From an uncultured Arenicella sp. (GTDB lineage Bacteria; Pseudomonadota; Gammaproteobacteria; Arenicellales; Arenicellaceae), in contig CALINO010000042.1 in NCBI GenBank assembly GCA_938045295.1, positions 1 through 50,396 on the forward strand: 50,396 nucleotides of DNA, in the 5' to 3' direction. Shown piece after piece: positions 29,234 through 48,381 of the stretch. Position numbers and translations under genes: made by a program. Within the stretch, counting starts at the first letter, position 1, and every line of letters starts with the position of its first letter. The notes below the pieces were generated by a model. The model saw only the letters and a program-made list of their open reading frames with translations. It did not search any database and was not told the DNA's origin.

Positions 29234-29245
29234 GAGTGACTTGGC

Positions 29246-31794: not shown

Positions 31795-31830
31795 CTAATA
31801 ACCGTATCATTATCGACTTCTGCCAAATTC

Positions 31831-33552
31831 ATGATTTCACAGCACGCCGTTATTGACAGTTTACCAGCGCATTTACGATCGTTTGTGGCGCTGCAAGAGC
31901 ATGCGCAATACACCCCACGAGATCACGCCATTTGGCGATTTTTGTTGCACCAACTGAAGTTCAATATGCAACACAGCGCGCACCCCACGTACTTTGAAGG
32001 GCTGGAAAAAACCGGCATTGGCACAGAAGAAATACCGCGCATTGAAACAATCAACGCTTGCTTAAACCAGCTAGGCTGGCAAGCGGTGGCGGTGGATGGT
32101 TTTTTACCACCGGCCATTTTCATGGAGTTTCAGGCCCGCAAGGTATTGGCCATTGCACTTAATATTCGTTCGTTTAAGCACATGCTCTACACCCCAGCGC
32201 CCGACATTATTCATGAGTCGGCAGGCCATGCCCCTTTTTTAATCGACATTGATTACGCCGAATTTTTACAGCACTTTGGTGAACTGGGAATGCAAGCCAT
32301 TGCCACGCAACACGACATGGATATTTACCAAGCAGTGCGTCACCTGTCGATTGTTAAAGAAAGCACTAATTCCAGTATTAGCGACATTGAAGAGGCACAA
32401 CAGCAGGTTGAAGACTTGCAAAACAAACAAGTAGAACCCTCAGAGGCCAACTTACTTGCTCGCCTGCATTGGTGGACCGTGGAGTATGGCTTGGTCGGTA
32501 ACTTAGAAAACTACCGTATTTTTGGTGCCGGGTTATTATCGTCGTTGTCTGAAAGCCAAAGCTGCTTGGATGACGATGCGGTAAAAAAATTGCCTCTTAC
32601 ACTGAACGCCGTTCGCACCGCGTACGACATTACCCAGCCACAACCACAGTTATTTGTCACCGAATCTTGCCGCCACTTAAGCCAAGTGCTCAAAGAGTAT
32701 GGCCGGCACATGTGTTGCCAACGCGGCGGTGCCAGCGCGCTCAACGAAGCACACCAAGCCGGTTCCATTAATACCGTTACCTATAATTCAGGCCTGCTAG
32801 TTGCGGGGCGCATTAAACACGTAGTCAGTGACGCGGTGGGGAACGCCATTTACTTTAATACCCACGGGCCAACACAATTGGCATACGACAATACAGAGCT
32901 GCCAGAACATGGCGTGGACTATCACAGTCAAGGGTTTGGCTCGCCAATCGGCAAACTGCGCGCCATGGAGCGATGCTTAAGTGCGTACACCATTGATGAG
33001 CTGAAACGGCACAGTATCGAAGTTAATCGTGAAGTGAGCTTAAACTTTTTATCCGGCGTTAACGTAACAGGTCAGCTGCAACGCATATTAAGGCGCGAGC
33101 AAAAAAACATTTTGTTCAGCTTTAGTCAATGCACGGTCAGTGACGCCGAAGGCCATGTTTTGTTTAGCCCCGATTGGGGCAATTTTGATATGGCCATTGG
33201 CGACTCAATTGTTGCGGTTACCGGCGGCTCAGCCGACCCAACGGCTTACCCAATTTACCAACCGGCATCGCAAAACGTGACCGCCAAACAACACTATAAT
33301 TCAGACACTCACGCGCAGTTTAGCTTGTACAGCCAACTCAAAAACGCACGTGAAACCGGCCAAGAGCAGCATGAAATCATTAGCGTAATTAGCCAACAAA
33401 ACACCGACTGGTTACTCACCTATGAAGCGCTTGAACTGGCTAATAAAATCAATACCGAACCCGCCATCAAGGCCACACTGCTTGATCAACTACAAAAAGA
33501 AACCGGTGATGCGGCTGCGTTGATCAAGGCGGGCCTAAAACGGCTAGCTTAA
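31831..33552 (+). CDS. phhA: Phenylalanine 4-hydroxylase, long form
   Basis: A 573-residue pterin-dependent aromatic amino acid hydroxylase. Iron ligands are His128 and His133 in HESAGH and Glu218 in HWWTVEYGL. The catalytic domain occupies about 25-300; the remaining 270 residues form an extension, absent from the roughly 260-residue Pseudomonas PhhA, that other long bacterial members also carry and whose function is unknown. It turns phenylalanine into tyrosine and so feeds the hppD-fahA-maiA route. It starts 36 bp after maiA and its stop lies 1 bp from the stop of the convergent MFS gene. No pterin recycling enzyme (PhhB) is in the window. Confidence 0.88.
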   Translation: MISQHAVIDSLPAHLRSFVALQEHAQYTPRDHAIWRFLLHQLKFNMQHSAHPTYFEGLEKTGIGTEEIPRIETINACLNQLGWQAVAVDGFLPPAIFMEFQARKVLAIALNIRSFKHMLYTPAPDIIHESAGHAPFLIDIDYAEFLQHFGELGMQAIATQHDMDIYQAVRHLSIVKESTNSSISDIEEAQQQVEDLQNKQVEPSEANLLARLHWWTVEYGLVGNLENYRIFGAGLLSSLSESQSCLDDDAVKKLPLTLNAVRTAYDITQPQPQLFVTESCRHLSQVLKEYGRHMCCQRGGASALNEAHQAGSINTVTYNSGLLVAGRIKHVVSDAVGNAIYFNTHGPTQLAYDNTELPEHGVDYHSQGFGSPIGKLRAMERCLSAYTIDELKRHSIEVNREVSLNFLSGVNVTGQLQRILRREQKNILFSFSQCTVSDAEGHVLFSPDWGNFDMAIGDSIVAVTGGSADPTAYPIYQPASQNVTAKQHYNSDTHAQFSLYSQLKNARETGQEQHEIISVISQQNTDWLLTYEALELANKINTEPAIKATLLDQLQKETGDAAALIKAGLKRLA

Positions 33553-33553: not shown

Positions 33554-34975
33554 TTACGACTTTTTGTCCCAAATTTGCTCGATTTCTTCCAAACTCTTAC
33601 CTTTGGTTTCAGGCACAAATCGCCAAACGAACACAAAGGCCACTACGCAGAAGAAGGCGAAAATAAAGTAGGGTAATGCGCCATTAAATTGCTCGGCGTT
33701 AAGCTCGCTTCGGTTTATTACCGGAAAGCTGCTCGCCACAATGCCGTTAAATAACCATTGAGCGCCAACCGCAATGGCCATGGCAAAGCTGCGAATGTGG
33801 TTAGGAAACATCTCAGATAATAATACCCATACCACCGGCCCCATCGACATCGCAAAAGAACCAATGAAGAGTAAAATTGCAAGCAGCGAGATCACGCCAA
33901 GTTGCTGGGTATAAATAGTAAACCCGAGCACCGACAAGCCTAAGAACATACCCAGTGAGCCCATCAAATAAAGTGGCTTGCGCCCCCAGCGGTCAACGGT
34001 AAAGATCGCCACAAAGGTAAACACAAGATTGACGGCACCCAACCATAATTGCTGTTTCAGTGCGTCTTGCGGGCCATAGCCCAGTGCGTTGCTGAAAATT
34101 TCCGCGCCGTAATAAAGAATGGCGTTAATACCGGTGATTTGCTGGAAAATTGACAGCATGGCGCCAATAAAGATGGCGAAACCTAGACCACCAATCAAAG
34201 CCTTACCAGAAGCAAAACTGCGATCGCCTGCCGACATTAAAGACGTACGAATTTGCTCAACATTACGCTCGGCTTCATTACTGTCTTTATAGATTTTATT
34301 TAATACGGCTTTTGCATCCGTTTCGCGCTGCTTCATCATTAGCCAACGAGGGCTGTGCGGAACCATAAACAGCGCAAGCAAGAATAAACCAGCCGGTAAC
34401 AGTTCAGCCCAAAACATCACACGCCAACCGCGATCTAAGTTTTCTTGATGCACCAGCGCCAACTCTTCTGCACTCAGATCAACAGAATTACCGCCGCCAA
34501 TAATATAGGTTGCCAAGAACACGGCAAAAAAGCCCAATACAATTGACAGTTGATACAAAGACACCATTTTGCCGCGCTGCTTAGCCGGCGAGATTTCAGC
34601 GATGTACATTGGCGCTGCCATGGAGGCAAAGCCAATACCAACGCCGCCAATAATACGGTACACCACCAGCTCAGTTAAGGAGCTGGCCACCCCTGACCCC
34701 CAGGCTGATACGCAGAACAACACCGCGGATAGCAACAGCGTGTACTTACGACTGATGGCCTTGGTTAAGTAACCGGCAACTAAAGCACCAACCAAGCAGC
34801 CATATAAGGCGCTTCCCACAGCCCAACCTTGCTCGGCGGGTGTGAGCGCAAAGTGCTCGGTAAAATAAAGTTGCGCGCCGCCAATGACCCCCGTATCAAA
34901 ACCAAATAGAAAGCCACCTATCGCTGCAATAAAGGCGATCCGTGCTATGTAGGTCATATTATAATTATCAGTCAT
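33554..34975 (-). CDS. MFS sugar porter (XylE/glucose transporter type)
   Basis: A 473-residue twelve-helix sugar porter: GGFLFGFDTGVIGGAQLYF in helix 1, VVYRIIGGVGIGFASMAAPMYIAEISPAKQRG, VPHSPRWLMMK, FQQITGINAILYYGAEIF in helix 7, and PETKGKSLEEIEQIW. The pattern fits a proton-linked monosaccharide transporter, probably glucose released by the GH15/GH13 enzymes. The start at 34975 follows GAGGAG by 6 bp. Two ATACGTAT operators lie in the 247-bp gap it shares with the divergent halogenase-like gene, which suggests LacI control with the rest of the glucan locus. Confidence 0.87.
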   Translation of the reverse strand: MTDNYNMTYIARIAFIAAIGGFLFGFDTGVIGGAQLYFTEHFALTPAEQGWAVGSALYGCLVGALVAGYLTKAISRKYTLLLSAVLFCVSAWGSGVASSLTELVVYRIIGGVGIGFASMAAPMYIAEISPAKQRGKMVSLYQLSIVLGFFAVFLATYIIGGGNSVDLSAEELALVHQENLDRGWRVMFWAELLPAGLFLLALFMVPHSPRWLMMKQRETDAKAVLNKIYKDSNEAERNVEQIRTSLMSAGDRSFASGKALIGGLGFAIFIGAMLSIFQQITGINAILYYGAEIFSNALGYGPQDALKQQLWLGAVNLVFTFVAIFTVDRWGRKPLYLMGSLGMFLGLSVLGFTIYTQQLGVISLLAILLFIGSFAMSMGPVVWVLLSEMFPNHIRSFAMAIAVGAQWLFNGIVASSFPVINRSELNAEQFNGALPYFIFAFFCVVAFVFVWRFVPETKGKSLEEIEQIWDKKS

Positions 34976-35043: not shown

Positions 35044-35056
35044 GTATACGTATGCA
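35044..35056. promoter_or_regulatory. Candidate LacI operator (ATACGTAT core) near sugar porter
   Basis: GTATACGTATGCA, core ATACGTAT at 35046-35053, about 70 bp upstream of the MFS start at 34975. It matches the palindromes before the TonB receptor and the LacI gene. Confidence 0.65.
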
Positions 35057-35124: not shown

Positions 35125-35138
35125 TTGCATACGTATTC
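35125..35138. promoter_or_regulatory. Candidate LacI operator (ATACGTAT core) near halogenase-like gene
   Basis: TTGCATACGTATTC, core at 35129-35136, 85 bp upstream of the start at 35223. It differs by only one base from TGCATACGTATTCA sites seen at 47131 when aligned on the core. Confidence 0.7.
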
Positions 35139-35222: not shown

Positions 35223-36749
35223 ATGAAAAGCCCAATGAACGTTGTTATTTTAGGCGGTGGCAGCGCAGGATGGATGGCCGCCAGTTTAATGACGCAGGCG
35301 TGGGTTAATAAGCATGTTCACATTCAGCTGATTGAATCACCCGAAATAGGCATCATTGGCGTAGGTGAAGGCTCAACCCCTCAACTCAAAACGGTGTTTG
35401 AAAAACTTGGAATAAGCGAACGCAGATGGATGCGTCAATGCAATGCCACCTACAAACACGGCATTGAATTTACCGGCTGGTCTGGCACCAAAGGGTTTGA
35501 ATCTTACTTTCACTCATTCCCGGCAAAGACCGATCGCGATACCGCTCAAGCATTTGTCTACAACTGCTTTTTACGCCGCCAGCAATTGGATGTGTCGGTC
35601 AATCCAAGCTCATACTTTCTACCAGCATGGTTAGCAAAATATAAATTAGGCCCCCACCCTGATGACAATTTTCCGTTCAACACCAGCTATGGTTATCATT
35701 TTGACGCACACCAATTAGGCAATGTATTGCGTGATCATGCGGTGCAACACGGCGTGCAACACGTTCGTGACCATATTAGTGAAATCAAACTGAATGAAAA
35801 AGGCGACATTGAAAGCCTGATCGGAAAAGAAGGAAAGCGATACGACGCCGATTTTTTTATTGATGCCTCAGGCTTTCAAAGCGTATTACTGCAACAAGCG
35901 TTGGGCGTAGAGTTTGAAAGTTACAGTGACTCGCTGTTCAATGACTCTGCCGTGGTCATGGCCAGTGAGCTGTCGGGTGGACCTAACGCACACACCCAAG
36001 CTAGCGCAATGCGATGTGGCTGGCGATGGAATATTCCCCTACAACACAGAATCGGCAACGGCTATGTGTATAGTTCCGCTTTTTGTTCTCGTGAACAAGC
36101 CGAACATGAGTTACGTGCTGAGTTAGGTTTGCTGGAACAAGGTGCCTCAGCGCGCCACCTTAAAATGAAGGTCGGTCAGGTAAAAGAACACTGGCATAAA
36201 AACTGCTTGGCCGTGGGCTTGTCACAAGGATTTCTTGAGCCATTAGAAGCCACCGCATTACATTTAGTGCAAAGCACCATCGAAACCTTTATCAATGCGT
36301 TTAATTTTCAGGCGCCTGAGCAATCGCAGCAAGCCGCGTTTAATCAACAGATTCACGCCCGATTTAACGGCATTAAAGATTACATTGTGTGCCACTACAA
36401 AATGAATTCACGCACTGATACCGAGTATTGGAAAGCCAATCGAGACAATCCACATATATCAGACTCACTGGCATCTCTTTTGCAGGTGTGGCACTTGGGT
36501 GGCGACTTATCGCTTGAAATTGACCGACAACAAATTTCTCACTACTACTCGACGTTATCTTGGCACGCACTGCTTGCCGGTTACGGTGCCTTTAACGAGA
36601 AAAACCAACACAACCTGATTAAGCATGACCGCCGAGCCCAACGCTTTAGCATTGAAGAGGTGGAAAATTTCAACCAACGCTGTGCACTGAACTTTACCAA
36701 ACATGCCGCACAAATTGGCTTTTCAAGCCCGGGAAAACAAGCAATATGA
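35223..36749 (+). CDS. Tryptophan-halogenase-family flavoprotein (first)
   Basis: A 508-residue variant-A flavin halogenase homologue. GGGSAGWMAA (11-20), GVGEGSTP (46-53), Lys78 (ATYKHGIEF) aligning with catalytic Lys79 of PrnA, WRWNIP (267-272), and FLEPLEAT (337-344), where Glu342 aligns with PrnA Glu346. PrnA has Ser347 next; here it is Ala343. Proteins of this kind are frequent beside TonB receptors in sugar loci, where the true substrate is unknown. A halide or indole role is therefore only possible. It starts behind AAAAGGGG and precedes the TonB receptor by 160 bp, with two operators in that gap. Confidence 0.87.
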   Translation: MKSPMNVVILGGGSAGWMAASLMTQAWVNKHVHIQLIESPEIGIIGVGEGSTPQLKTVFEKLGISERRWMRQCNATYKHGIEFTGWSGTKGFESYFHSFPAKTDRDTAQAFVYNCFLRRQQLDVSVNPSSYFLPAWLAKYKLGPHPDDNFPFNTSYGYHFDAHQLGNVLRDHAVQHGVQHVRDHISEIKLNEKGDIESLIGKEGKRYDADFFIDASGFQSVLLQQALGVEFESYSDSLFNDSAVVMASELSGGPNAHTQASAMRCGWRWNIPLQHRIGNGYVYSSAFCSREQAEHELRAELGLLEQGASARHLKMKVGQVKEHWHKNCLAVGLSQGFLEPLEATALHLVQSTIETFINAFNFQAPEQSQQAAFNQQIHARFNGIKDYIVCHYKMNSRTDTEYWKANRDNPHISDSLASLLQVWHLGGDLSLEIDRQQISHYYSTLSWHALLAGYGAFNEKNQHNLIKHDRRAQRFSIEEVENFNQRCALNFTKHAAQIGFSSPGKQAI

Positions 36750-36772
36750 GCACTGGTAATACGAATAATAAC

Positions 36773-36786
36773 TGAATACGTATGCA
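36773..36786. promoter_or_regulatory. Candidate LacI operator A before TonB receptor
   Basis: TGAATACGTATGCA, core ATACGTAT at 36776-36783. First of an identical tandem pair in the gap before the receptor gene. Confidence 0.78.
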
Positions 36787-36805
36787 ATTTGGCCGACCTC
36801 CAAAA

Positions 36806-36819
36806 TGAATACGTATGCA
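36806..36819. promoter_or_regulatory. Candidate LacI operator B before TonB receptor
   Basis: TGAATACGTATGCA again, core at 36809-36816, exactly 33 bp (three helical turns) from operator A and 90 bp before the receptor start. Confidence 0.78.
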
Positions 36820-36909
36820 GCATCTTCCGCATATTCGGCCATTAACCTACGATCGAAATAGATCATTACATAATGATTAATTCCGATAAATTGAGGAGGA
36901 AAGTAACAT

Positions 36910-39705
36910 ATGAAAAATATAATTAATGACTCTATAGATACGCAAATAGCCGCAAAAAAAAGAAAATTCAAACGAACGGCCATTTCAACCTGTGTCGCAA
37001 CCGCATTGTTTGGCATGAATGCCGCTCAACTGTCGGCACAAGAACAAACAGAAGCCACTAACCAAAACGCCAAAGAGACGGTTCTTGAAGAAGTGGTGGT
37101 TACCGGCTTCCGCCGCAGCATTAAAGACAGCATCGATAACAAACGTTTCTCAGAATCAGTTATCGAAGCCATTACCGCCGAAGATATTGGCAAACTTCCA
37201 GATTCCAGTATTGCCGACTCTATTGCAAGATTGCCTGGACTGGCCGCACAGCGTTTAGACGGTCGAGCCAGCTCTATCTCTGTTCGTGGTTTCAGCGAAG
37301 ATTTCTCCACCGCCACGTTTAATGGCCGAGAGCAGGTCTCTATTGATGACAACCGTGGCGTGCAATTCGACTTATACCCATCGGAAATTATTTCTGGCGT
37401 AACCGTGCACAAAACACCAACCTCATCGTTGGTAAATCAAGGCATTGCCAGCACCATTGATTTGCAAACCATTCGCCCGCTCAGCCAAGACGAACGCCTG
37501 TTGGTGTTAAACGCTTCTTATGAGCAGAATGACATTGGTAAATTAAACGCCGACGGTGAAGATGCAGGTTTTCGTGGCACATTGTCGTTTGTTGATAAAT
37601 TTGCTGATGACAAGCTGGGCGTTGCTTTGGCTTTGTCGACATTTGAGTCACCCAACAATGAAGAACGTTTCAATGCGTGGGGTTACCCAACGGACGCCAA
37701 TGGCAACAGCGTACTTGGCGGCCTAAAACCGTTTGTTCGTTCTTCTAACTTACAACGCGACACGGCCATGGCGGTTGTGGAGTACGCACCGACTGAAAAT
37801 TTATCAATCACTGCGGACGCTCTGTATATTGACTTTTTGGACGAAAAAATTCTTCGCGGCATCGAAATTCCTGGCGCGATATGGGGCGGCGGCTTCGGCA
37901 CTGAATTTACTCCGGGATCGGCCTCTAACGGTTTTATTACCAGCGGTAGTCTGGATAATGTAACCGGCGTTGTGCGTAACGATTTCGAGCAACGTGATGC
38001 GGAATTACGCAATGTTGGTTTAAACATTAAGTACGACATCAACGAATCGACGGTCTTAGAGTTTGATGTCAGCTCTTCAGAAGCCGAGCGTACTATTAAC
38101 TCACTGGAAACCTATTCTGGTACTGGCCGAGGCACGGGCGTTGGTGCAACTGACACCATCGGTTTCCAAATGCCAACGCAACAAGGCATTACGTTAAACA
38201 ACCAGCTGAATTATGCCGACCCTAATTTAGTCAGACTCGGTGGCCCGTTAAGTTGGGCAAACGGCATTACCGTACCGAGTAATGGGCAAGACGGTTTCAT
38301 TAACATTCCAGAAATAGAAGACGAATTAACCGCGCTGCGAGTAAGTTTAAGTAAAGATTTTGAATCCGGCTTTATCACCAATGTGGAAGTTGGCGTTAAC
38401 TATACTGATCGCTCAAAATCAAAAGAGGACAACGGCTTCTTCCTTACCTTGCGTGACTTTCCAAACCAAAGTGCGGTACCAGAAGCATTTCGCGTTGCGC
38501 CAACCTCGCTTGAGTTTCTTGGTTTAGGCAGTCAGCTTTCTTATGATGCGTTTGGCTTATTCAACTCAGGAATCTATACCCAAACGTCTGAAAACTTAAC
38601 CGTAAACACTCGTTTGATTAACACTTGGACCGTAGACGAAGAAATCACCACCGCTTACGGCCAAATTAATTTTGCTACCGAACTCGGTTCAATGAACTTG
38701 TCGGGTAATGTAGGTTTACAGTATGTGGATACAGATCAAAGCTCGATGGGTAACGCTGTTACCAGCCAAGACGGTTTTTCTGTGCCCTCAGCCAGTACTG
38801 GTGGCGCTAGCTTTGATCACCTATTGCCAAGCTTGAACCTGAATCTGGATATTACTGATAACCATAAGCTGCGTTTTGGTTACGCACAAACGATCTCACG
38901 TTCAAGAATGGATCGCATGAATGCGGGCTTTGGTTTTAGCTTCGACCCAGTGGCCAACATTGCTGGCGCACCGGCGTTCAGTGGTGGCGGCGGCAACCCT
39001 GAGCTGCGCCCGAATGAAGCCAACTCTTACGATTTAAGCTATGAGTGGTACTTCTCTGATGAAGGTTACTTAGCGGTGGCTTATTTCTATAAAGACTTAA
39101 AATCGTGGCAAGAGCAAGTACAATCTGTGGTGGATTTAAGCGGCCTACAAGCGCCTGGTTTTAACGGTGTTATCAATAACCCAACTGGTTTAATCACGCA
39201 ATGGACTGACAACACCACTGGCTCTTTAGACGGTTTTGAAATAAGCGGAGTATTGCCAGGTAACATCATCAGCCCAGCATTGGATGGTTTTGGGATCAGC
39301 ATGAGCGCCACTTTTCTTGACAGCAGCCTAGAGTCAGGCGTTGACGGCAGTTCGCTTGAGATACCAGGCTTATCAGAAGAAATTCTAAATGCCACATTTT
39401 TCTATGAGAAAAATGGCTTTAGCGTACGAGCCAGTGTTCGTGACCGCGAAGATTTCTTAGGTGAGCGTTTTGGTAACTCTTTCGTACGAGAGTCAACCAC
39501 GGTTGTTGGTTCAACCATTTGGGATGCGCAAATTGGCTTTGACTTTGGCGAAGCCGGTATCGAGCGTTTCGATGGTTTGGCCATTTCATTACAAGGCCAA
39601 AACCTAACGGATGAACCCTTTACCACGCTTGACGGAAATGGCTTTATTCGAGACTTCCAACGTTTTGGTAGAACCTTCTTGCTAAACGCAAGGTACAGTT
39701 TCTAA
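36910..39705 (+). CDS. TonB-dependent outer-membrane receptor (Xanthomonas/Caulobacter type)
   Basis: A 931-residue receptor. It has a long signal peptide (about 44 residues, ending LSAQ), a TonB box EEVVVTG at 60-66, a plug with ITAEDIGKLPDSSIADSIARLPG and SISVRGFSEDFSTATFNGREQ, and a beta-barrel closing in FLLNARYSF with the terminal Phe. The extended N-terminus and SIADSIARLPG pattern fit the TonB-Xanth-Caul subfamily used for sugar uptake. With the GH15 and GH13 enzymes it should import maltodextrins or related alpha-glucans. Two identical ATACGTAT operators precede it; an intrinsic terminator follows. Confidence 0.93.
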   Translation: MKNIINDSIDTQIAAKKRKFKRTAISTCVATALFGMNAAQLSAQEQTEATNQNAKETVLEEVVVTGFRRSIKDSIDNKRFSESVIEAITAEDIGKLPDSSIADSIARLPGLAAQRLDGRASSISVRGFSEDFSTATFNGREQVSIDDNRGVQFDLYPSEIISGVTVHKTPTSSLVNQGIASTIDLQTIRPLSQDERLLVLNASYEQNDIGKLNADGEDAGFRGTLSFVDKFADDKLGVALALSTFESPNNEERFNAWGYPTDANGNSVLGGLKPFVRSSNLQRDTAMAVVEYAPTENLSITADALYIDFLDEKILRGIEIPGAIWGGGFGTEFTPGSASNGFITSGSLDNVTGVVRNDFEQRDAELRNVGLNIKYDINESTVLEFDVSSSEAERTINSLETYSGTGRGTGVGATDTIGFQMPTQQGITLNNQLNYADPNLVRLGGPLSWANGITVPSNGQDGFINIPEIEDELTALRVSLSKDFESGFITNVEVGVNYTDRSKSKEDNGFFLTLRDFPNQSAVPEAFRVAPTSLEFLGLGSQLSYDAFGLFNSGIYTQTSENLTVNTRLINTWTVDEEITTAYGQINFATELGSMNLSGNVGLQYVDTDQSSMGNAVTSQDGFSVPSASTGGASFDHLLPSLNLNLDITDNHKLRFGYAQTISRSRMDRMNAGFGFSFDPVANIAGAPAFSGGGGNPELRPNEANSYDLSYEWYFSDEGYLAVAYFYKDLKSWQEQVQSVVDLSGLQAPGFNGVINNPTGLITQWTDNTTGSLDGFEISGVLPGNIISPALDGFGISMSATFLDSSLESGVDGSSLEIPGLSEEILNATFFYEKNGFSVRASVRDREDFLGERFGNSFVRESTTVVGSTIWDAQIGFDFGEAGIERFDGLAISLQGQNLTDEPFTTLDGNGFIRDFQRFGRTFLLNARYSF

Positions 39706-39739
39706 GAAGCTGCGAATCTCTCCTGATTCACGTTTTATG

Positions 39740-39773
39740 CCCTTGCAGAGTTTATCTGCAAGGGTATTTTTTT
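39740..39773 (+). terminator. Intrinsic terminator after TonB receptor gene
   Basis: Stem CCCTTGCAGA (39740-39749), loop GTTTA, TCTGCAAGGG (39755-39764), then TATTTTTTT. It is a perfect 10-bp stem with a T run, 34 bp after the receptor stop and 28 bp before the next gene. Confidence 0.88.
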
Positions 39774-39801
39774 CACTATTGAAACCCCCTATACTAAAAC
39801 C

Positions 39802-41307
39802 ATGCCAAACAGCCATATAAAACGCCTAGTCATTGTCGGCGGAGGTACCGCCGGATGGATTACCGCTGCGGTGATGAGCCGCATGCTCAACAAGACACTC
39901 GACATCACATTAGTAGAGTCGCCCAACATCAGCAGCGTGGGGGTTGGCGAGGCTACGATTCCACCGATTTTAATTCTCAATAATGCGCTCGGCATTGATA
40001 ACGCTGATTTTATGCGCAAGACCAATGCAACCATTAAGTTAGGCATTGAATTTGAAAACTGGAAGCATAAAGACCACAGCTACATGCACGCATTTGGCAA
40101 GTTCGGTAACGACTTTCCTTTTTGCGGGTTTGAACAACTTTGGTTACGTGGCAGAAACACCGGCGACAGTACCGATTTTTGGGATTATTCGTTAAATTAC
40201 CAAGCCGCGATTGAAGGAAAGTTTGCACCACTCGACACCATTCCAAACACCGAACTGCAGGGGCTAATCCACGCGTATCATTTTGATGCTGGGTTGTACG
40301 CAAACTACTTGCGCTCTTTCAGTGAACAACGTGGGGTCACTCGAATTGAAGGCCACATCGAGCAGGTAAAACAAGACTCAGAAAATGGCTTTATCACATC
40401 GCTGCAACTTGAAAACGGCGAACAAGTAGAAGGCGATTTATTCATAGATTGCTCTGGTTTCCGAGGCCTATTAATTGAGCAGACACTGCAAGCAGGCTAC
40501 AACGACTGGAGTCACTGGTTGCCGTGCGATCGTGCGGTGGCCGTTCAATCTAAGGCTGAATACCCAATACAGCCATACACCAAAGCCACCGCGCATGAAT
40601 CGGGTTGGCAATGGCGCATCCCGCTCACCGAGCGTACCGGAAACGGCCTAGTGTACTGCAGCCAATATTTAGACGCCGACCAAGCACAAGACCAGTTGTT
40701 AGAAAATTTGAACAGCCAAGCCACCACAGAGCCCAAACATTTGCGTTTTTTAACTGGTCGGCGACGCTCTCAATGGTTAAAGAATTGCGTTGCCATCGGT
40801 TTATCGTCTGGCTTTTTAGAACCGCTGGAATCCACCAGCATTCACCTAATTCAAACGGCGGCGATTAGGCTGTTAAAACTGTTTCCTCATAACGGCGTTA
40901 AACAAAGTGAAGTGGATGAATTTAATCGGCAATCACAGCAAGAGTTTGAGCATATTCGAGACTTTATTATTTTGCATTACCATGCCACAGAGCGTGACGA
41001 TTCCGAGTTTTGGCGTTACTGCAATAACATGTCGATCCCTGACACCTTAAAGCATAAAATTGATCTGTTTCGCGATACTGGCAAAGTGCAGAACCCTACT
41101 GAAGCATTATTCTCAGACGTGGGCTGGCATCAGATAATGATTGGCCAAGGCATCATGCCAACAGATTACCACCCACTTGCTAATGCCATGAGCCAAGCCC
41201 AGTTGACCGAGTATCACCGAAATTTGAAAGCCATTTTTCAGCAGGTGGTTAAAAAGTTACCAACGCACCAATCGTTTTTAAACAAAGTGCATGGCACCGC
41301 ACACTAA
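39802..41307 (+). CDS. Tryptophan-halogenase-family flavoprotein (second)
   Basis: A 501-residue variant-A flavin halogenase homologue. GGGTAGWITA (13-22), GVGEATIP (47-54), Lys79 in ATIKLGIEFENW exactly at the PrnA position, WQWRIP (269-274), and FLEPLEST (338-345) with Glu343 and Ser344 as in PrnA Glu346-Ser347. All signature residues are present, more complete than in the first copy at 35223. A terminator separates it from the receptor gene, so it has its own promoter or depends on read-through. Its role in sugar metabolism, if any, is unknown. Its stop codon lies in a 10-bp inverted repeat shared with the convergent GH13 gene. Confidence 0.88.
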   Translation: MPNSHIKRLVIVGGGTAGWITAAVMSRMLNKTLDITLVESPNISSVGVGEATIPPILILNNALGIDNADFMRKTNATIKLGIEFENWKHKDHSYMHAFGKFGNDFPFCGFEQLWLRGRNTGDSTDFWDYSLNYQAAIEGKFAPLDTIPNTELQGLIHAYHFDAGLYANYLRSFSEQRGVTRIEGHIEQVKQDSENGFITSLQLENGEQVEGDLFIDCSGFRGLLIEQTLQAGYNDWSHWLPCDRAVAVQSKAEYPIQPYTKATAHESGWQWRIPLTERTGNGLVYCSQYLDADQAQDQLLENLNSQATTEPKHLRFLTGRRRSQWLKNCVAIGLSSGFLEPLESTSIHLIQTAAIRLLKLFPHNGVKQSEVDEFNRQSQQEFEHIRDFIILHYHATERDDSEFWRYCNNMSIPDTLKHKIDLFRDTGKVQNPTEALFSDVGWHQIMIGQGIMPTDYHPLANAMSQAQLTEYHRNLKAIFQQVVKKLPTHQSFLNKVHGTAH

Positions 41308-41339
41308 CATAAGCACAAACACAGTGAGCGTGCTTATGT
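41307..41339. terminator. Inverted repeat between convergent stop codons
   Basis: ACATAAGCAC (41307-41316), 13-nt loop, GTGCTTATGT (41330-41339), a perfect 10-bp stem that includes both the halogenase stop (41305-41307, at its edge) and the GH13 stop (41334-41336). No T run follows on either strand, so termination is only likely. Confidence 0.5.
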
Positions 41340-43052
41340 GCGCTCGCTTATAAAACAAAAGCCATAAGGCTGAAATGTCCATTCGCCATTGTCAGCATTC
41401 ACATCACAGGACTCACTGCGAATCACGTCAGTAAATCCTGTTAGCCCTTCAGGCCTAACAGCAACACTCACATCATCACACAGGTTCAACGCCACCAGCA
41501 TTTTAGTATCGCCATGACTACGCTGTATTAATAAAATATTGCTGGTATCGGGCATCTCAATAAACTCAATATCACCCACGATCAATGGTTTTTGCTGTTT
41601 GCGCCACGCCAGAAAGTTTTTGTAATAATTAAGCACCGACTGAGAATTGGATGCTTGAGATTTAACGCATCGAGAATAATGATCCGGGGCAATAGGCAAC
41701 CAGGTTTCGACCGTAGAAAAGTCTGCGTATAACTTTTCTGAGTCCCAAACCATGGGCGTTCGACAGCCGTCTCGACCTTTAAATTCTGGCCAAAACTCAA
41801 TACCAAACGGGTCTTTTAATTGTTCTTTACTGACGCTCGCCTGCGTTAAGCCCAGCTCCTCTCCTTGGTACACACAAATCGTACCTCTTAAAGAGGCGGT
41901 TAAGGTAAGCAACATTTTGGCAAGCTCGTCGTTATACCGGCCGGTTCCCCAACGGCTGACAACCCTCTCCACATCATGGTTGCTGATAGACCAACAAGAC
42001 CAACCTTCTTTAAGAACTGACTCAAGCTCATTAACCGTGTTACGAATATAATCCGCTGAATATTCATCAGCGAGCAATTCAAAACTGTAACCCATGTGTA
42101 AACGCTTATGCCCTTGAGTGTACTCCGCTAAGGACGCTAATGAATTTTCCGAATTAATTTCACCTAAAGTCACAGTACCGGGGTACTTATCTAACAACGC
42201 ACGCACGTCTTCTAAAAACGAAAGGTTTTCAGGCTGGGTGTTGTCATAGTAATGGTATTGCGCGGCATAAGGATTGTCTGCCGAGAACCCTCGGCCAACA
42301 CGCTCCTCGATAGGCTTAATGGGGTTATCGCGCAACTCTTTGTCGTGATAGCAAAAGTTAATCGCATCCAACCTAAAACCATCAACGCCCCGCTTTAGCC
42401 AAAACTCAATTTCTTCAATAATTTGCGCACGCAGCTCTGGGCAATGGTAATTAAGATCTGGTTGCGAACGCAAAAAGTTATGAAAGTAATATTGCTGACG
42501 TTCTTCGCTCCACTCCCAAGCACCGCCACCAAAAATTGAGTGCCAGTTATTCGGCGGCGAACCGTCTTCTTTTGCGTCAGCCCAAACATACCAATCAGAC
42601 TTTGGATTATTTTGTGACTGTCGGCTTTCTATAAACCACGGGTGCTGGTCAGACGTGTGGCTCAACACCTGATCTATCATGACTTTGATGTTGGCCTTTT
42701 TGGCCGCCGCAAGCAGTTCATCAAAGTCGGCCAATGTACCAAACAATGGGTCTACGTCTCGGTAATCGCTGATGTCATAACCGAAGTCTTTCATCGGTGA
42801 CTTGAAAAACGGCGAAACCCAAATGGCATCAACACCTAGGTTAGCAATGTAATCCATTTTTTGTGTAATGCCACGTAAGTCACCAATACCGTCGGCGTTG
42901 GTGTCATAGAAACTGCGTGGGTAGACCTGATAAATGACAGCACCACGCCACCACTCTAAAGCCTCGTCAGAGAGTGTTAATGCTGCATCGAATGGTAGGG
43001 CGTTACTTATTTGGTTCATCTCTTTAATACGTGATGGGTTTGGGTTATTCAT
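41334..43052 (-). CDS. Alpha-glucosidase, GH13 (oligo-1,6/alpha-glucosidase group)
   Basis: A 572-residue GH13 enzyme. The nucleophile is Asp229 (DGFRLDAINF), the acid/base Glu298 (VTLGEINS) and the transition-state residue Asp360 (SISNHDVERV). YQVYPRSFYDTNADGIGDL and GVDAIWVSPFFKSPM belong to the conserved barrel. No signal peptide is visible, so it acts in the cytoplasm on imported maltose or maltodextrins, giving glucose. The start at 43052 or the ATG at 43019 could be used; neither has a strong ribosome site. It is the last gene of the minus operon behind the MFS and GH15 genes. Confidence 0.92.
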   Translation of the reverse strand: MNNPNPSRIKEMNQISNALPFDAALTLSDEALEWWRGAVIYQVYPRSFYDTNADGIGDLRGITQKMDYIANLGVDAIWVSPFFKSPMKDFGYDISDYRDVDPLFGTLADFDELLAAAKKANIKVMIDQVLSHTSDQHPWFIESRQSQNNPKSDWYVWADAKEDGSPPNNWHSIFGGGAWEWSEERQQYYFHNFLRSQPDLNYHCPELRAQIIEEIEFWLKRGVDGFRLDAINFCYHDKELRDNPIKPIEERVGRGFSADNPYAAQYHYYDNTQPENLSFLEDVRALLDKYPGTVTLGEINSENSLASLAEYTQGHKRLHMGYSFELLADEYSADYIRNTVNELESVLKEGWSCWSISNHDVERVVSRWGTGRYNDELAKMLLTLTASLRGTICVYQGEELGLTQASVSKEQLKDPFGIEFWPEFKGRDGCRTPMVWDSEKLYADFSTVETWLPIAPDHYSRCVKSQASNSQSVLNYYKNFLAWRKQQKPLIVGDIEFIEMPDTSNILLIQRSHGDTKMLVALNLCDDVSVAVRPEGLTGFTDVIRSESCDVNADNGEWTFQPYGFCFISERT

Positions 43053-43071: not shown

Positions 43072-45474
43072 TTACGGTGAAACATAACGCTCTGAGACCG
43101 GTTCGTATGAGTCCCACACTTTTTGATCCGCGATTGAACGCAATAGTTTTATGTATTCCGCATGCGCCCATGCTAAAGGCGTTGCCGAGTTAGTGCCTTC
43201 GCCCACTTGGTAACGATTTTTTGGGTTAACGCCAACACCGTCATAAACCTGTTCGGGCAGCATCAAGCCTTGGTTAGCAAAATGCTCCATGGCTTTGACA
43301 TACGTGTTTCTCAACGCCTCTTTTTTGACACCCAAGGCCAGCTCATAGTGCGCTCGTTCGCCGGTTAGAAAGGGCCAGACTCGACCTCGTTGACCTGGGC
43401 TCATACCTCCGTCGGCACCACCATCGCTGCCAGTGGCGCCGTAGTTGGTGCCATTCACCACATCTTCTCCATAGCCGTCACCGCCATAACGACGCCAACC
43501 AGGGTAGCTAGCTTTGTCTCCTGGAAACGTAAAGTCGTATTTAGTCCGCAAATGGTGTGGCAAAGACTGATCGTCGAGCTCTTGCAATGAATCAACCACA
43601 TATGGGTCGCGCGATGAGCGCACGCCGTAACGCACCAGCTCTAAGAATCCACCATCAACAATGTCCATTTCTTGCAGCCCAGCTTTGCCATTACGATCCA
43701 ACAACGCCCCGTTGTCATTGGGGTCTTGGTTCTGGCTAATACGCAAAAAATATCGCCCATTGTGATTCAGCTTGCCCTGGGTGGTGAAGGTAAATGCCTC
43801 GATGTTATTTTCATACCGATCAGCAACCTTTAGGTAGTGCTGAGCCGACTCATCGTCGCCCACATGCTTAGCGATCGCCGAAGCTGACACTAAACCGGCT
43901 ATGATTGACGCCATCGTAGACGGTGAATAACCTTCTTGCTCTTCCCAACGCTCTTGCTGTGTCCAAGGCGGCGTAATCTCTGCGCTATTCCAGTCCAAAT
44001 TTACCTTGCCACCGTTGGCTAAAAAGTCGGCGGCCGGTTTGAGCATTTTTTCATACCACGCCGCTATTTCTTGATCACTTAACCCGCCTTGCTGCCAAAG
44101 CTGCCAGCCCAACATAATCGGCATAGCAACTTGATCCATTTGCACAGACATCCATTCCAAGGTGCCATCAACGTGCGTCTTCTGTAAAAACCACCCGCCT
44201 GCGCCTTGATTGTTCGGGGTGTTACTGCCTACTTGAAATTGGTTTAAATACTCAAACGCAATCTTGGCGGTTTCAGTGTCGCCTAGTGCCAAAAATGCCA
44301 TCGCGCATTGATAAAAATCACGCGGCCAAACCGCCTTATAACCGCTGGCTTGTTTAATCGCCGAGTTGGTTTCACCCCAAGGGTTAGACAGTGACGCAAT
44401 CAACGCCCCTGCGTGGGTCTTATCTTCTTGAACTTTGAGCACTAACGCGCTACTATAGGCAAGCTTGCCATTGTCAGTCGAGGTGTTACTGACCCGCTCT
44501 AAACTTGAGAGGCTCTTTAGGTAATCCTGCCAACCCACATAGTTTTCTGTTCCGTTGTATTCTGACAGCACTTGTTGGTAACCACGCTCAAGCGTGGCTT
44601 TAGCCGCGGCGTTACTTTGAGTCAACGACTGACCAAAGCCATACACCACATCCACGGTGGTGGTTTCACCTTCAACTAACACTGGGAATGCGCTCGACAA
44701 ACTGACATTGCCCCGCACATCACCGGTAGTGCGGTACTGACTATCAAAAGAAAAGTCGCTCAAGTCAGTGTGAGCGTCAGAATGACCGACAAAACCCACC
44801 GACGACTTTTCCGGCTTAATGGACGTGACCACACTCAAATAAGTACCGGCGTCTTCGGCGTGCAAGCCGTCCTCGCTGACCCACGCGCGATCGCCCAGAC
44901 CGTCATTATTAATATGCGGATTAACGGTTAAAATTGGCCGCAAGCCTGACTCAAACGCGGTAAATTGATAACGCACAATTAAGCTTTGCTCACTGGGGTC
45001 GGTGAAAATGTGTTTTTCTAATTGATACTTTCCCTGCTTGTCGCGGTTAATAATGCGGTATGCCGGTGACAATGGACGATTAGCATCGTCTGTGTGCAGA
45101 TAACTAATATCACTCAACATGTTTTCTTGCTCAGAGTCTACGAAGTCAGTACCCACCACTAACATCTGAGAGTCTTTTATCTGCGCTTCGTGAATCAAGC
45201 CATACATGACTTCCGTTACTATGCCTTGGGCTAAAGAAAACCAAACTTTAGATACATCGCCGGTTGCCGAGTTCGGCTGATAAGCCGAGTCGCTGTACGC
45301 TTCATAAGAGGTGCCTATGCCGGTTTTTCCAGAGTAAGACCAGACTGGGCTGGCGCCGGGAGCACCGGGCGCTACGCTCACTTTTTGCGCCTGGCTCAAT
45401 GGCGATTTGTTTACGCAAGCGACTAAAAGGCTAGTACCGATTACGCACAAAGAAGAGGTGATTATTTTTTTCAT
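43072..45474 (-). CDS. GH15 glucoamylase-like lipoprotein
   Basis: An 800-residue glucan 1,4-alpha-glucosidase homologue. The N-terminus ends in lipobox LLVAC, so Cys20 is likely lipidated and the enzyme sits in the periplasm or on the outer membrane. An N-terminal beta-sandwich domain (about 30-320) precedes the catalytic barrel. YKAVWPRDFYQ (379-389), the acid region ERWEEQEGYSPST (508-520) and the base region LPEQVYDG (739-746) give the two catalytic glutamates. It would release glucose from the ends of maltodextrins brought in by the TonB receptor. It starts 3 bp after the MFS stop. Confidence 0.9.
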   Translation of the reverse strand: MKKIITSSLCVIGTSLLVACVNKSPLSQAQKVSVAPGAPGASPVWSYSGKTGIGTSYEAYSDSAYQPNSATGDVSKVWFSLAQGIVTEVMYGLIHEAQIKDSQMLVVGTDFVDSEQENMLSDISYLHTDDANRPLSPAYRIINRDKQGKYQLEKHIFTDPSEQSLIVRYQFTAFESGLRPILTVNPHINNDGLGDRAWVSEDGLHAEDAGTYLSVVTSIKPEKSSVGFVGHSDAHTDLSDFSFDSQYRTTGDVRGNVSLSSAFPVLVEGETTTVDVVYGFGQSLTQSNAAAKATLERGYQQVLSEYNGTENYVGWQDYLKSLSSLERVSNTSTDNGKLAYSSALVLKVQEDKTHAGALIASLSNPWGETNSAIKQASGYKAVWPRDFYQCAMAFLALGDTETAKIAFEYLNQFQVGSNTPNNQGAGGWFLQKTHVDGTLEWMSVQMDQVAMPIMLGWQLWQQGGLSDQEIAAWYEKMLKPAADFLANGGKVNLDWNSAEITPPWTQQERWEEQEGYSPSTMASIIAGLVSASAIAKHVGDDESAQHYLKVADRYENNIEAFTFTTQGKLNHNGRYFLRISQNQDPNDNGALLDRNGKAGLQEMDIVDGGFLELVRYGVRSSRDPYVVDSLQELDDQSLPHHLRTKYDFTFPGDKASYPGWRRYGGDGYGEDVVNGTNYGATGSDGGADGGMSPGQRGRVWPFLTGERAHYELALGVKKEALRNTYVKAMEHFANQGLMLPEQVYDGVGVNPKNRYQVGEGTNSATPLAWAHAEYIKLLRSIADQKVWDSYEPVSERYVSP

Positions 45475-45477: not shown

Positions 45478-46992
45478 TTAATCTTGATAGTCAACAATAA
45501 ATACTGAAAGTGCGGCAACCAACCAAAAACACGCAGCCAGTATCAACATACTCATTGTGTTTCCTTGCATTAAGTTGCTTAGAATTAGACCTAAAATACT
45601 GGCGGCAACCAGTTGCGGAATAACAATGAAAATATTGAATACCCCCATGTAAATTCCCAGACTGTGGCCGGGTAGTGAGTTGGATAAAATGGCATAAGGT
45701 ATGGACAATATCGACGCCCAAGCAAAGCCAACTCCAACCATCGATAACAACAACCACTGCGGATCATCAATAAACGCAAACGACGCCAAGCCAAGAGCGC
45801 CCAACAACAAATTAAATTGATGCGTCAATTTGATACCAATAGCGCGCGCCAACACGGGAATGATTGCCGCGGCCAAAATAGAAACCCCACTGTAAACCGC
45901 AAACAACAGGCTCACCCAGTTTGCACCTTCGTTATAAGCCAGACTTTGAGGGTCATCACTTAAGAAATGATGACTGGTCACTGCAGGGGTAAGGAAGGTC
46001 CACATAGTAAAAAGAGGAAACCAAGAAAAAAACTGCACCCACGCTAATTGCTTCATGGTTTTTGGCATAAGTACCACGCTGCGACAAGCCTGATAGAAGT
46101 GGCTGTTTTTTACAGCCTCAAAACCAGATGCTTCGCGAGTGGCGTTGACCAATTGAATTACACCGTAGACCAAGACGCCAACCGTTAAGATATACAACTG
46201 CCAATCTAACTTCAGCAATAAAACCATCAGCGAGCTCAGCACACCAAAGATACACCACCATCTGGCGCGGCCGCTATCGAACACTGTTTCAACGGCTTCT
46301 TGAACCTGAAGCACTCCTTGACGCTTTTCTGCCTCGGCAAACTGTTCCATTTCTTGAGGGCTGTATTCTTTGGTTCGAAATACCGTCCAGGCTACCGCCG
46401 CCATTAAGACAATGCCGCCGCAGTAAAAGGAATAACGAACCACATCCGGTATTTCACCTTCGCCAGCGGTGCTATCAACGCCAAAATAATTGGCAAATAT
46501 ATAAGGCATGGCCGACGCAACAACTGCTCCAATACCAATCAATATGGTCTGCATAACATAGCCAAAGGTACGCTGGCGAGGTGGCAACATATCTCCGACA
46601 AATGCTCTGAATGGCTCCATGGTCACATTAAGGGCCGCATCAAGAATCCATAACATTCCTGCAGCGATCCACAACGTTGGCGAATGCGGCATAACAAATA
46701 ACGCCGCGGTGGTAAGAATCGCCCCCCATAAAAAGTATGGCCGACGGCGCCCTAAGCGATTCCATGTTCTATCACTGTAAAAGCCAACAATAGGCTGCAC
46801 AATCAAGCCCGTTAACGGCGCCGCGATCATCAATATCGGCACCGCGCTCATATCTGCCCCTAAGGTTTGGAAAATACGGCTGATATTGGCTTGCTGTAAC
46901 GCAAAACCAAACTGGATACCCATGAAACCAAAGCACATATTCCATATTTGCCAAAAACTTAGCGCTGGCTTTTGTTGACTTACTGCCTTCAT
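45478..46992 (-). CDS. MFS maltodextrin/maltose transporter (GPH/SUC-like)
   Basis: A 504-residue transporter with about twelve helices. It shows QFGFALQQANISRIFQTLGA in helix 1 and PIVGFYSDRTWNRLGRRRPYF in the first cytoplasmic loop, the signature of sucrose/maltose-type MFS proteins rather than the XylE type. The central cytoplasmic region contains QEMEQFAEAEKRQGVLQVQEAVETVF. It should move maltose or maltodextrin across the inner membrane for the GH13 enzyme. The start at 46992 follows AAGGT by 4 bp. It is the first gene of the operon; the promoter gap to the divergent LacI gene holds paired ATACGTAT sites. Confidence 0.88.
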   Translation of the reverse strand: MKAVSQQKPALSFWQIWNMCFGFMGIQFGFALQQANISRIFQTLGADMSAVPILMIAAPLTGLIVQPIVGFYSDRTWNRLGRRRPYFLWGAILTTAALFVMPHSPTLWIAAGMLWILDAALNVTMEPFRAFVGDMLPPRQRTFGYVMQTILIGIGAVVASAMPYIFANYFGVDSTAGEGEIPDVVRYSFYCGGIVLMAAVAWTVFRTKEYSPQEMEQFAEAEKRQGVLQVQEAVETVFDSGRARWWCIFGVLSSLMVLLLKLDWQLYILTVGVLVYGVIQLVNATREASGFEAVKNSHFYQACRSVVLMPKTMKQLAWVQFFSWFPLFTMWTFLTPAVTSHHFLSDDPQSLAYNEGANWVSLLFAVYSGVSILAAAIIPVLARAIGIKLTHQFNLLLGALGLASFAFIDDPQWLLLSMVGVGFAWASILSIPYAILSNSLPGHSLGIYMGVFNIFIVIPQLVAASILGLILSNLMQGNTMSMLILAACFWLVAALSVFIVDYQD

Positions 46993-47130: not shown

Positions 47131-47144
47131 TGCATACGTATTCA
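47131..47144. promoter_or_regulatory. Candidate LacI operator C
   Basis: TGCATACGTATTCA, core ATACGTAT at 47134-47141. It is the reverse complement of the TGAATACGTATGCA sites before the TonB receptor. Confidence 0.78.
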
Positions 47145-47163: not shown

Positions 47164-47177
47164 GACATACGTATTCA
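47164..47177. promoter_or_regulatory. Candidate LacI operator D
   Basis: GACATACGTATTCA, core at 47167-47174, exactly 33 bp from operator C, the same spacing as in the pair before the TonB receptor. Confidence 0.75.
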
Positions 47178-47346: not shown

Positions 47347-48381
47347 ATGAAAGACAAAAACAAACCCACTTCTTTAGATATTGCGCATTTGGCTGGTGTT
47401 TCGCAGCCCACTGTTTCTCGTGCTCTGCGCGACAGCCCGTTGGTAAGTAAGGAGACGCGGCTCAAGGTTCAAGAAATCGCCCGCGATTTAAACTATAAAG
47501 TGGATGTTAATGCTCGTAACCTGAGAGCGCAAAGTACCAACACCATCGCCTTACTCATTTTTGAAGACGACGACGGCGATGCCGCTTTTATCAACCCCTT
47601 TTTTCTATCCTTGCTTGGCAGCATTACTCGTGCGTGCGCATCGGCAGGCTACGACTTGTTATTTTCTTTTCAACAACTAAGCCAAGATTGGAATGCCGAA
47701 TATGAAGACGCCAACAAAGCCGACGGCCTTATCTTTTTAGGTTACGGTGACTATACAAATTACATAAAGCGCATTGCCAAGCTCGACGCACAAGGAGCAC
47801 ACTTTGTAACCTGGGGGCCGGTGATTAAAAATCAGCCCGGGCTGTTTATTGGTTGCGATAACGTTCAAGGCGGCTTTTTAGCCGCCGATCATTTGCTCAA
47901 AGCAGGACATCGCAGAATTGCCTTTTTAGGTGATCTCAGCGAGAAAAACCCAGAACTTGAAAAACGCTATCAAGGCTACCTAAAAGCACATAAAGAACAC
48001 GGTGTGGCGATATCAAAGGAACTCATCTTCAGTGCCACGTCAGGCGAGGAACAAGGTTACAAGGCCGCTCTTAATCTACTGTCGAGCCAGCACCAGTTTA
48101 CCGCCATTGCCTGCACCAGTGATTTAATTGCCATAGGTGCAATCAAAGCGTTGCGCGCAAGTAATCTGCGCGTACCGAGCGATGTGGCCGTGGTTGGATT
48201 TGATGACATTCCCATTGCCGAACACATTTCTCCATCGCTAACCACCGTACAACAAGACACTTACGAGGCCGGAAAAGTGTTGGTAGACAGCGTAGTTAGC
48301 TTAATTAAAGGGCAGTCGGTGAACTCTAAATTGCTGCCAACTCGACTGATGGTGCGAGAATCTTGCGGCACAAAGAAATAG
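47347..48381 (+). CDS. LacI-family transcriptional regulator of the glucan locus
   Basis: A 344-residue LacI protein. The helix-turn-helix is at about 8-30 (SLDIAHLAGVSQPTVSRALRDS), the hinge helix near 52-62 (DVNARNLRA), and the sugar-binding domain follows, with FIGCDNVQGGFLAADHLLKAGHRRIAFLGD and VAVVGFDDIPIAEHISPSLTTV. It probably binds the ATACGTAT palindromes in its own promoter, before the TonB receptor and before the first halogenase/MFS pair, and lets go in the presence of maltose or a derivative. This assignment follows from position and site type. Confidence 0.9.
   Translation: MKDKNKPTSLDIAHLAGVSQPTVSRALRDSPLVSKETRLKVQEIARDLNYKVDVNARNLRAQSTNTIALLIFEDDDGDAAFINPFFLSLLGSITRACASAGYDLLFSFQQLSQDWNAEYEDANKADGLIFLGYGDYTNYIKRIAKLDAQGAHFVTWGPVIKNQPGLFIGCDNVQGGFLAADHLLKAGHRRIAFLGDLSEKNPELEKRYQGYLKAHKEHGVAISKELIFSATSGEEQGYKAALNLLSSQHQFTAIACTSDLIAIGAIKALRASNLRVPSDVAVVGFDDIPIAEHISPSLTTVQQDTYEAGKVLVDSVVSLIKGQSVNSKLLPTRLMVRESCGTKK

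Follow-up and report, generated by a model that had tools for sequence, protein, structure and literature searches.

Two genes for flavin-dependent halogenases, hal1 and hal2, flank a TonB-dependent receptor in a 50,396-nucleotide stretch of DNA from an uncultured Arenicella species (the window; contig CALINO010000042.1 of assembly GCA_938045295.1). We think it likely that the two proteins are cytosolic halogenases that use reduced flavin adenine dinucleotide (FADH2) and that serve as dedicated accessories of carbohydrate receptors of the family TIGR01782. The gene arrangement recurs far beyond chance. In the sequences, the catalytic apparatus is kept and the receptor neighborhood is conserved; hal1 also has operator-like sites in common with the receptor and the glucan genes, and a terminator-like hairpin precedes hal2. 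These "orphan" halogenases look like helpers of an uptake system rather than makers of antibiotics. The linkage is real and well supported and the enzyme family is known; what the enzymes act on is a physiological question that can now be tested. The original prediction, made by a model from the letters of the window, had asked why sugar-uptake loci carry such enzymes, and our surveys confirm that the question is a real one.

At an E value of 0.001, the halogenase family PF04820 also matches proteins in Escherichia coli and in archaea, so we counted halogenases at 1e-40 and 1e-60. The genome that contains the window encodes 12 TIGR01782 receptors above the family's cutoff and six full-length PF04820 enzymes. 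These enzymes are in four loci, each of which shares its contig with a TIGR01782 receptor; the distance to the receptor is at most 4 kb for five enzymes and 8.6 kb for the sixth. Among 13 genomes from the genus and family, the same 10 contain both PF04820 and TIGR01782, and the other 3 contain neither; since all 10 belong to the window's genus and the 3 negatives come from two other genera, this is one contrast rather than thirteen. Within these genomes, 44 of 49 PF04820 enzymes have a TIGR01782 receptor at a distance of 10 kb or less (5 kb or less for 42 of them), as compared to 1.7 expected, and all 44 linked halogenases are on the receptor's strand. One of the five unlinked enzymes (in locus L179) adjoins a more divergent receptor. 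Across 75 genomes of the class, strong matches to PF04820 were found in just four; three of these four have a strong match to TIGR01782, and so do none of the other 71.

We also collected 80 loci with relatives of hal2 from named genomes, using the halogenase to fetch them. In 66 of these loci, a receptor lies upstream on the same strand, and this holds for 62 of the 71 loci with at least 6 kb of upstream sequence. Because loci that were fetched by their halogenase are biased towards linked receptors, we ran another survey that began with the receptor and was blind to halogenases. A relative of the window's receptor was found in 39 of 349 genomes of the phylum. Leaving aside the window itself, we obtained 29 loci, which come from 29 of 38 matching genomes, with 1.5 kb of sequence on either flank; another 17 match rows had no locus. 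A halogenase was present within 1.5 kb of the receptor in 23 of the 29 relatives (the six without one are L229, L232, L242, L243, L244, and L246). Finally, we labeled a tree of the receptors by the type of locus (type A or type B, as described below, or unlinked). The labels change 8 times on this tree, which was built from halogenase-fetched loci and is thus biased to linked receptors, versus 44 times in shuffles. The genome survey that the original prediction proposed as a check thus shows a strong and widespread link between halogenase and receptor.

Both halogenases match PF04820 across their full lengths, at 442 bits for hal1 and 640 bits for hal2 (the cutoff is 21). When aligned on PrnA, both retain the catalytic lysine and glutamate, the two tryptophans of the WxWxIP motif, and equivalents of His101 and Phe103 of PrnA (Table 1). 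The loop that binds flavin adenine dinucleotide (FAD) is GGGSAGW in hal1 and GGGTAGW in hal2, so that both proteins combine GxGxxG with WxWxIP. The ESTG motif of PrnA is EATA in hal1 and ESTS in hal2; the threonine, a part of the halide site, is common to both. The predicted structure of hal1 (mean predicted local distance difference test [pLDDT] score, 90.2) superposes over nearly its full length on solved flavin halogenases, such as that of Pseudoalteromonas sp. L11 (9luq; Z, 55.4; root mean square deviation [rmsd], 2.6; 474 residues) and BrvH (6frl; Z, 53.6; rmsd, 2.6; 478 residues). The lysine, the glutamate, and both tryptophans are conserved in 163 of 167 aligned homologs of more than 440 amino acids, so selection seems to act on the chemistry. 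The sequences thus bear out the motifs that the original prediction listed, and the homologs support its view that hal1 and hal2 are probably active flavoenzymes.

The two enzymes differ in their closest relatives among solved structures. In a phmmer search, hal2 matched 9luq at 655 bits, Xcc4156 (6y1w) at 536 bits, and BrvH at 461 bits, and no other solved halogenase among the matches listed exceeded 309 bits. Sequence similarity therefore places hal2 within the BrvH/Xcc4156 lineage of indole-brominating halogenases. It does not place hal1 there: hal1 is no closer to BrvH, Xcc4156, and 9luq (249 to 264 bits) than to AbeH (304 bits) or PrnA (278 bits). Where contacts to the amino and carboxyl groups of a free tryptophan would be expected, near the ragged end of the alignment, Y443 and Y444 of PrnA, whose sequence was available only to residue 449, are opposite W442 and H443 of hal2 and W447 and H448 of hal1, so the difference between W442 of hal2 and Y443 of PrnA is uncertain. 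Neither protein is a member of the QhpG-type family NF049967 (32.1 bits for hal1 and 34.2 bits for hal2; the cutoff is 240). We found no flavin reductase among the proteins of the window that were scanned for families.

Open reading frame (ORF) calls gave hal1, the receptor, and hal2 in that order, all on the forward strand, with exactly the outer coordinates that had been predicted. The receptor scored 540 bits against TIGR01782 (the cutoff is 310), which makes it a member of the family, and several of its relatives are situated in alpha-glucan loci. The component set of a maltodextrin-type carbohydrate utilization (CUT) locus is complete here: a receptor, carbohydrate-active enzymes, an inner-membrane transporter, and a sugar regulator are found together. 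The predicted sugar receptor within an alpha-glucan locus is thus supported, with enzymes from glycoside hydrolase families 13 and 15 (GH13 and GH15), transporters of the major facilitator superfamily (MFS), and a LacI-family regulator alongside. Two other statements about the surroundings did not hold up as made. That the neighbors are all glucan genes is correct for the near surroundings only, as an operon for the degradation of phenylalanine and tyrosine lies to the left of the sugar MFS gene. Also, natural-product genes had been said to be missing, but an aryl-polyene-like biosynthetic cluster occupies roughly the first 24 kb of the window.

Table 1. Features of the window discussed in the text
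Feature	Coordinates	Strand	Description
hal1	35223..36749	+	508 amino acids; PF04820 flavin-dependent halogenase homolog; K78, H97, F99, W267-x-W269, E342
TonB-dependent receptor	36910..39705	+	931 amino acids; TIGR01782 family
hal2	39802..41307	+	501 amino acids; PF04820, BrvH/Xcc4156/9luq lineage; K79, H96, F98, W269-x-W271, E343
Sugar-porter MFS	33554..34975	-	Divergent from hal1; above the TIGR00879 cutoff; best NCBIfam match is XylE, below cutoff
GH13 enzyme (alpha-amylase family)	41334..43052	-	Profile matches
GH15 glucoamylase	43072..45474	-	TIGR01535, above cutoff
MFS sugar transporter	45478..46992	-	GPH/sucrose-like; below NCBIfam cutoffs
LacI-family repressor	47347..48381	+	Profile match; presumed operator binder
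LacI-type operator GNATACGTATNC	35044..35055	.	Between MFS (33554-34975) and hal1
LacI-type operator	35127..35138	.	Between MFS and hal1
LacI-type operator	36774..36785	.	Upstream of receptor
LacI-type operator	36807..36818	.	Upstream of receptor; 33 bp from the 36774 site
LacI-type operator	47132..47143	.	Between the MFS-GH15-GH13 operon and lacI
Operator-like site, one mismatch	47165..47176	.	33 bp from the 47132 site
Terminator-like hairpin	39737..39767	+	Between receptor and hal2; 13-bp stem, then T6
PF04820-related flavoprotein	1915-3498		44 bits
PF04820-related flavoprotein	13927-15294		99 bits; QhpG model 125 bits, below the cutoff of 240
MMPL exporter	16080-18452		Aryl-polyene-like cluster
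Chorismatase-like protein	20724-21686		Aryl-polyene-like cluster
AMP-ligase	22270-23676		Aryl-polyene-like cluster

The operator-like sites in three intergenic regions are suggestive of induction by sugar. The LacI-type palindrome GNATACGTATNC occurs at seven sites in the 2.99-Mb genome, and five of these are in this locus; of the other two, one falls within a gene on contig 15 and one close to the end of contig 59, and the reversed pattern does not occur. Ten first-order Markov sequences modeled on the window had no exact sites and an average of 1.2 sites with up to one mismatch, as compared to the 5 and 6 that we observed. The orthologous receptor also has such sites in each of the five genus relatives that we fetched (L173 to L177), as well as in Psychrosphaera (L048) and Pseudoalteromonas (L075). 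In L175 the site is at the edge of the ORF call, which may have the wrong start; no site was found at the orthologous receptor in L041. Although hal1 is outside the receptor's operon, it has operator-like sites of its own. The LacI protein encoded at 47347 would bind these operators.

The terminator-like hairpin between the receptor and hal2 suggests that hal2 is expressed at a lower level than the receptor, and the simplest reading would be an excess of receptor over enzyme. Alternatively, hal2 may have a separate promoter. Such hairpins were found in 32 of 77 receptor-halogenase gaps (31 to 349 bp long, some of them from closely related loci), while 2.9 are expected from Markov shuffles. A promoter scan found no excess of sigma-70-like sites over shuffles, with 8 versus 10.2; terminator-like sites numbered 10 versus 7.1. 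We therefore claim no promoter, and the case for the hairpin at 39737 is made by its stem and by the comparison across the 77 gaps.

Putting these features together, we propose that alpha-glucan relieves the LacI repressor, so that much receptor and little halogenase would be produced. The halogenases would stay in the cytosol (their FAD fold begins at the N terminus) and would obtain FADH2 from a generic flavin reductase of the cell. Halide would be oxidized to hypohalite and, with the aid of the lysine, transferred to an indole- or phenol-like aromatic group. The two targets that we rank highest are both tentative. The enzymes might modify, ahead of export, an aromatic residue in the receptor or in a different envelope protein; or, with about the same modest probability, they might act on a small aromatic compound that arrives along with glycan uptake.

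To see what bears on the substrate, it helps to distinguish two architectures. In type A, the receptor is followed by hal2 and at times then by a hal1-like or other halogenase. In type B, the order is receptor, a halogenase from a second branch, SapC (PF07277), Cupin_8 (PF13621), and hal2. The window is of type A with hal1 upstream, and its own genome holds a type B locus as well (on contig 8). The commonest glycoside hydrolases near these loci, in a scan of 122 of 261 selected neighbor proteins that considered the 25 commonest families per batch, were GH13 (15), GH3 (10), GH97 (7), GH30 (4), and GH16 (4). Ten hand-picked neighbors from type A loci include seven alpha-glucan enzymes (GH13, GH97, and pullulanase) and one GH3; ten from type B loci include six GH3 and two GH16. 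The split between alpha- and beta-glucans is imperfect, as GH3 is found in the type A locus L099. We compared hal2 from 52 type A loci and 29 type B loci, using sequences that are at least 42% identical to hal2. At 88 positions, the same residue is present in at least 95% of the sequences, and no position is fixed to different residues in the two types. Of these 88 positions, 19 differ from PrnA, and the mean identity between types, in a sample, is 50%. Since alpha- and beta-glucan loci are served by one hal2 lineage whose fixed residues do not differ, a glycan or its hydrolysis product is unlikely to be the substrate; this also makes unlikely the suggestion in the original prediction that the enzymes act on the cargo of the receptor. 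We take it, from these sequences, that all hal2 proteins would act on one kind of substrate that is common to uptake systems whatever glycan is imported.

Could the receptor itself be modified, a target that the original prediction did not spell out? We compared 96 linked and 18 unlinked receptors, a comparison that omits sequences shorter than 750 amino acids and receptors whose locus halogenase is farther than 2.5 kb away or on the other strand. Among the linked receptors, no column of the alignment reaches 80% tryptophan. The best tyrosine discriminator (90% in linked versus 33% in unlinked receptors) is a histidine in the window's receptor. In the clade of the window's receptor, W257 and W449 are invariant in all 52 linked receptors; they persist in receptors without an adjacent halogenase (counts below), so a conserved tryptophan of the receptor as the obvious target is rejected in its simple form. 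Modification of the receptor is, on the sequences, possible but unsupported, and modification at other residues, of another envelope protein, or of a target without a fixed position in the alignment is possible. A more elaborate scheme, to which we give somewhat less credence than to either of the targets above, is that these receptors have their own oxidative maturation set: one or two flavin halogenases, often joined by SapC and the oxygenase-like Cupin_8 protein and in some cases by a degenerate halogenase serving as partner subunit, would alter residues, aromatic or not, in the receptor or in a common envelope partner while these are in the cytosol, before export. If this is true, then halogenases carry out a dedicated posttranslational modification of nutrient receptors.

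Two components of these loci deserve description. SapC is a regular gene of type B receptor operons (for example, L036:7121-7879 and L061:8220-8942). Its predicted structure (mean pLDDT, 94.9) had no match at E ≤ 0.001 with Foldseek and none at Z ≥ 2 with VIA-align 2; we therefore deduce no function, and this result does not show that the fold is new. Also, degenerate paralogs of the halogenases, flanked on both sides by intact ones, occur downstream of a TonB receptor or close to one in L211:5910-7418, L214:5643-7238, and L215:1901-3355 (reverse strand), with weaker cases in L101:8523-10004 and L107:7355-8461 (forward strand). These are long ORFs of 368 to 531 amino acids, and the copies in L211, L214, and L215 are 37 to 39% identical to each other. 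None of the five has the EPLES motif with the glutamate or an intact WxWxIP; L101 is the only one with the FAD loop, and it and L214 are the only two with the lysine. The five may be noncatalytic partner subunits.

Several observations weigh against the view that hal1 and hal2 are dedicated accessories of the receptor. Of the 48 TIGR01782 receptors in the genomes from the genus and family, just 26 have a linked halogenase for which they are the nearest receptor, so the enzyme is not a requirement of the whole family. One genome from the class survey (G046) has a strong halogenase match without a strong match to TIGR01782. A same-strand upstream receptor is missing from 14 of the 80 halogenase-first loci: 5 of these are truncated by the end of the contig (L074, L077, L089, L092, and L114), 4 contain a receptor at another position (L066, L081, L101, and L107), and 5 have no receptor in the available DNA (L064, L065, L095, L106, and L110). 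Genes like hal1 are scarce (11 of 168 aligned sequences, counting the window's), and hal1 is missing beside the orthologous receptor in four of five genus relatives, being present in L173 only. One of these four relatives, G011, has a homolog that is 60% identical to hal1 at a different place (L181:6124-7635, reverse strand); this homolog has no receptor in the 14 kb that we fetched. As for the receptor as a target, no tryptophan column reaches 50% in both types of receptors, and the six receptors of the window's clade without an adjacent halogenase all keep W257, while three of the six keep W449. Finally, coregulation is deduced from operator-like sites only.

The other two roles suggested in the original prediction, protection against phenolics and modification of a signal, are both possible. 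The halogenases might instead act on free aromatics (phenolics, indoles) brought in with glucans from plants or algae; they would halogenate or detoxify these compounds, and coregulation with sugar uptake would be anticipatory. We regard this as a possibility, if a somewhat doubtful one. BrvH and Xcc4156 are reported to accept indole or its derivatives but not free tryptophan (PMC5945002, PMC7336383), and genes for the catabolism of phenylalanine and tyrosine lie directly upstream (28154-33552). However, these catabolic genes have no operator-like site nearby, it is with the receptor that the halogenases have a conserved link, and the turnover of indole by BrvH is slow, at 2.5 mU/mg (PMC5945002). 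It is improbable, in our judgment, that the product is a halogenated signal or antimicrobial, released upon detection of glycan. This idea can draw on the natural-product clusters from which PF04820 enzymes are chiefly known. A metatranscriptome paper also speculates about antibiotic or redox roles for such enzymes in Colwellia and phages (PMC11337851). Still, across the 80 loci, the partners that recur are the receptor, SapC, Cupin_8, and further halogenases, and no biosynthetic family was among the 25 commonest per batch of neighbors (122 of 261 scanned).

Slightly less probable again is that the linkage is a byproduct of the transfer of whole carbohydrate loci and that the enzymes have no role in uptake. 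This idea gains from the many receptors that do without a halogenase, yet the halogenase persists while the glycoside hydrolases vary, and it is mostly right beside the receptor. The pattern is also found in both Gamma- and Alphaproteobacteria, with the operators, hairpins, and catalytic residues retained. The presence of an aryl-polyene-like cluster in the window raises one more idea, which we consider very improbable: that hal1 and hal2 brominate its pigment. Xanthomonadins are brominated aryl polyenes, and the window encodes ketosynthases, a chorismatase-like protein, an AMP-ligase, an MMPL exporter, and a LolA-like protein. But hal1 and hal2 are over 11 kb from the last gene of the cluster and are under a sugar-type operator, they are conserved with receptors in other lineages, and PF04820-related flavoproteins are encoded within the cluster itself (13927-15294 and 1915-3498).

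Like PrnA, RebH, and PyrH, which act on free tryptophan in natural-product pathways, hal1 and hal2 have the flavin halogenase fold, the FAD loop, the lysine, the glutamate, and WxWxIP; unlike for those enzymes, no biosynthetic gene is a regular neighbor of their relatives. The closest relatives of hal2 among solved structures are the members of its lineage, BrvH, Xcc4156, and the Pseudoalteromonas enzyme. The gene for BrvH also adjoins a second halogenase gene, and BrvH halogenates indole, which its authors doubt is the natural substrate (PMC5945002). The native substrates of BrvH and of the Xanthomonas enzymes are stated to be unknown (PMC5945002, PMC7336383), and indole serves in studies of this branch in place of a native substrate. 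In contrast, the hal genes described here are tied by position to a carbohydrate receptor and to a presumed regulon. With the BrvH branch as a standing partner of carbohydrate receptors, whatever the glycan, the search for its substrate can turn to the uptake system and away from "some natural product." In one survey, 83 of 103 halogenases from bacterial genomes are outside biosynthetic gene clusters (PMC8269204). Judging by titles and the openings of abstracts, no paper in the literature that we searched links halogenases to these receptors, but subscription papers were mostly out of reach, and the link may have been noticed before.

The locus itself resembles the CUT loci of Xanthomonas, which are carbohydrate utilization loci with TonB receptors; XCC2469 is induced by maltose and is an ortholog of MalA from Caulobacter (PMC1790865). 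In both cases, a TonB receptor, a sugar regulator, inner-membrane transporters, and alpha-glucan enzymes are found in one locus, but the word "halogenase" is absent from the main text of the CUT paper (PMC1790865). There is precedent for a protein target as well: QhpG, a halogenase-like flavoprotein, is described as dihydroxylating a tryptophan residue of a protein during the biogenesis of a cofactor (PMC7876137), though hal1 and hal2 score below the cutoff for its family. Similarly, MibH (5uao; PMC8269204) and ChlH (PMC12518702) are reported to be flavin halogenases of peptidic tryptophan, and they belong to peptide natural-product pathways, unlike the setting of hal1 and hal2.

Outside of the sugar locus, a 569-amino-acid ORF at 25427-27136 had no match in Pfam at 0.001. 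The Phe/Tyr operon directly upstream of the sugar locus (28154-33552) encodes 4-hydroxyphenylpyruvate dioxygenase (HPPD), fumarylacetoacetase, a glyoxalase-like protein, a protein similar to glutathione S-transferases, and an aromatic amino acid hydroxylase. The biosynthetic cluster (956-23676), whose description as aryl-polyene-like is our own reading, includes ketosynthases and the LolA-like protein. Amid this cluster, at 11182-12054, is a Cupin_8 protein (PF13621, 119 bits), from the same family as the Cupin_8 proteins of type B receptor operons.

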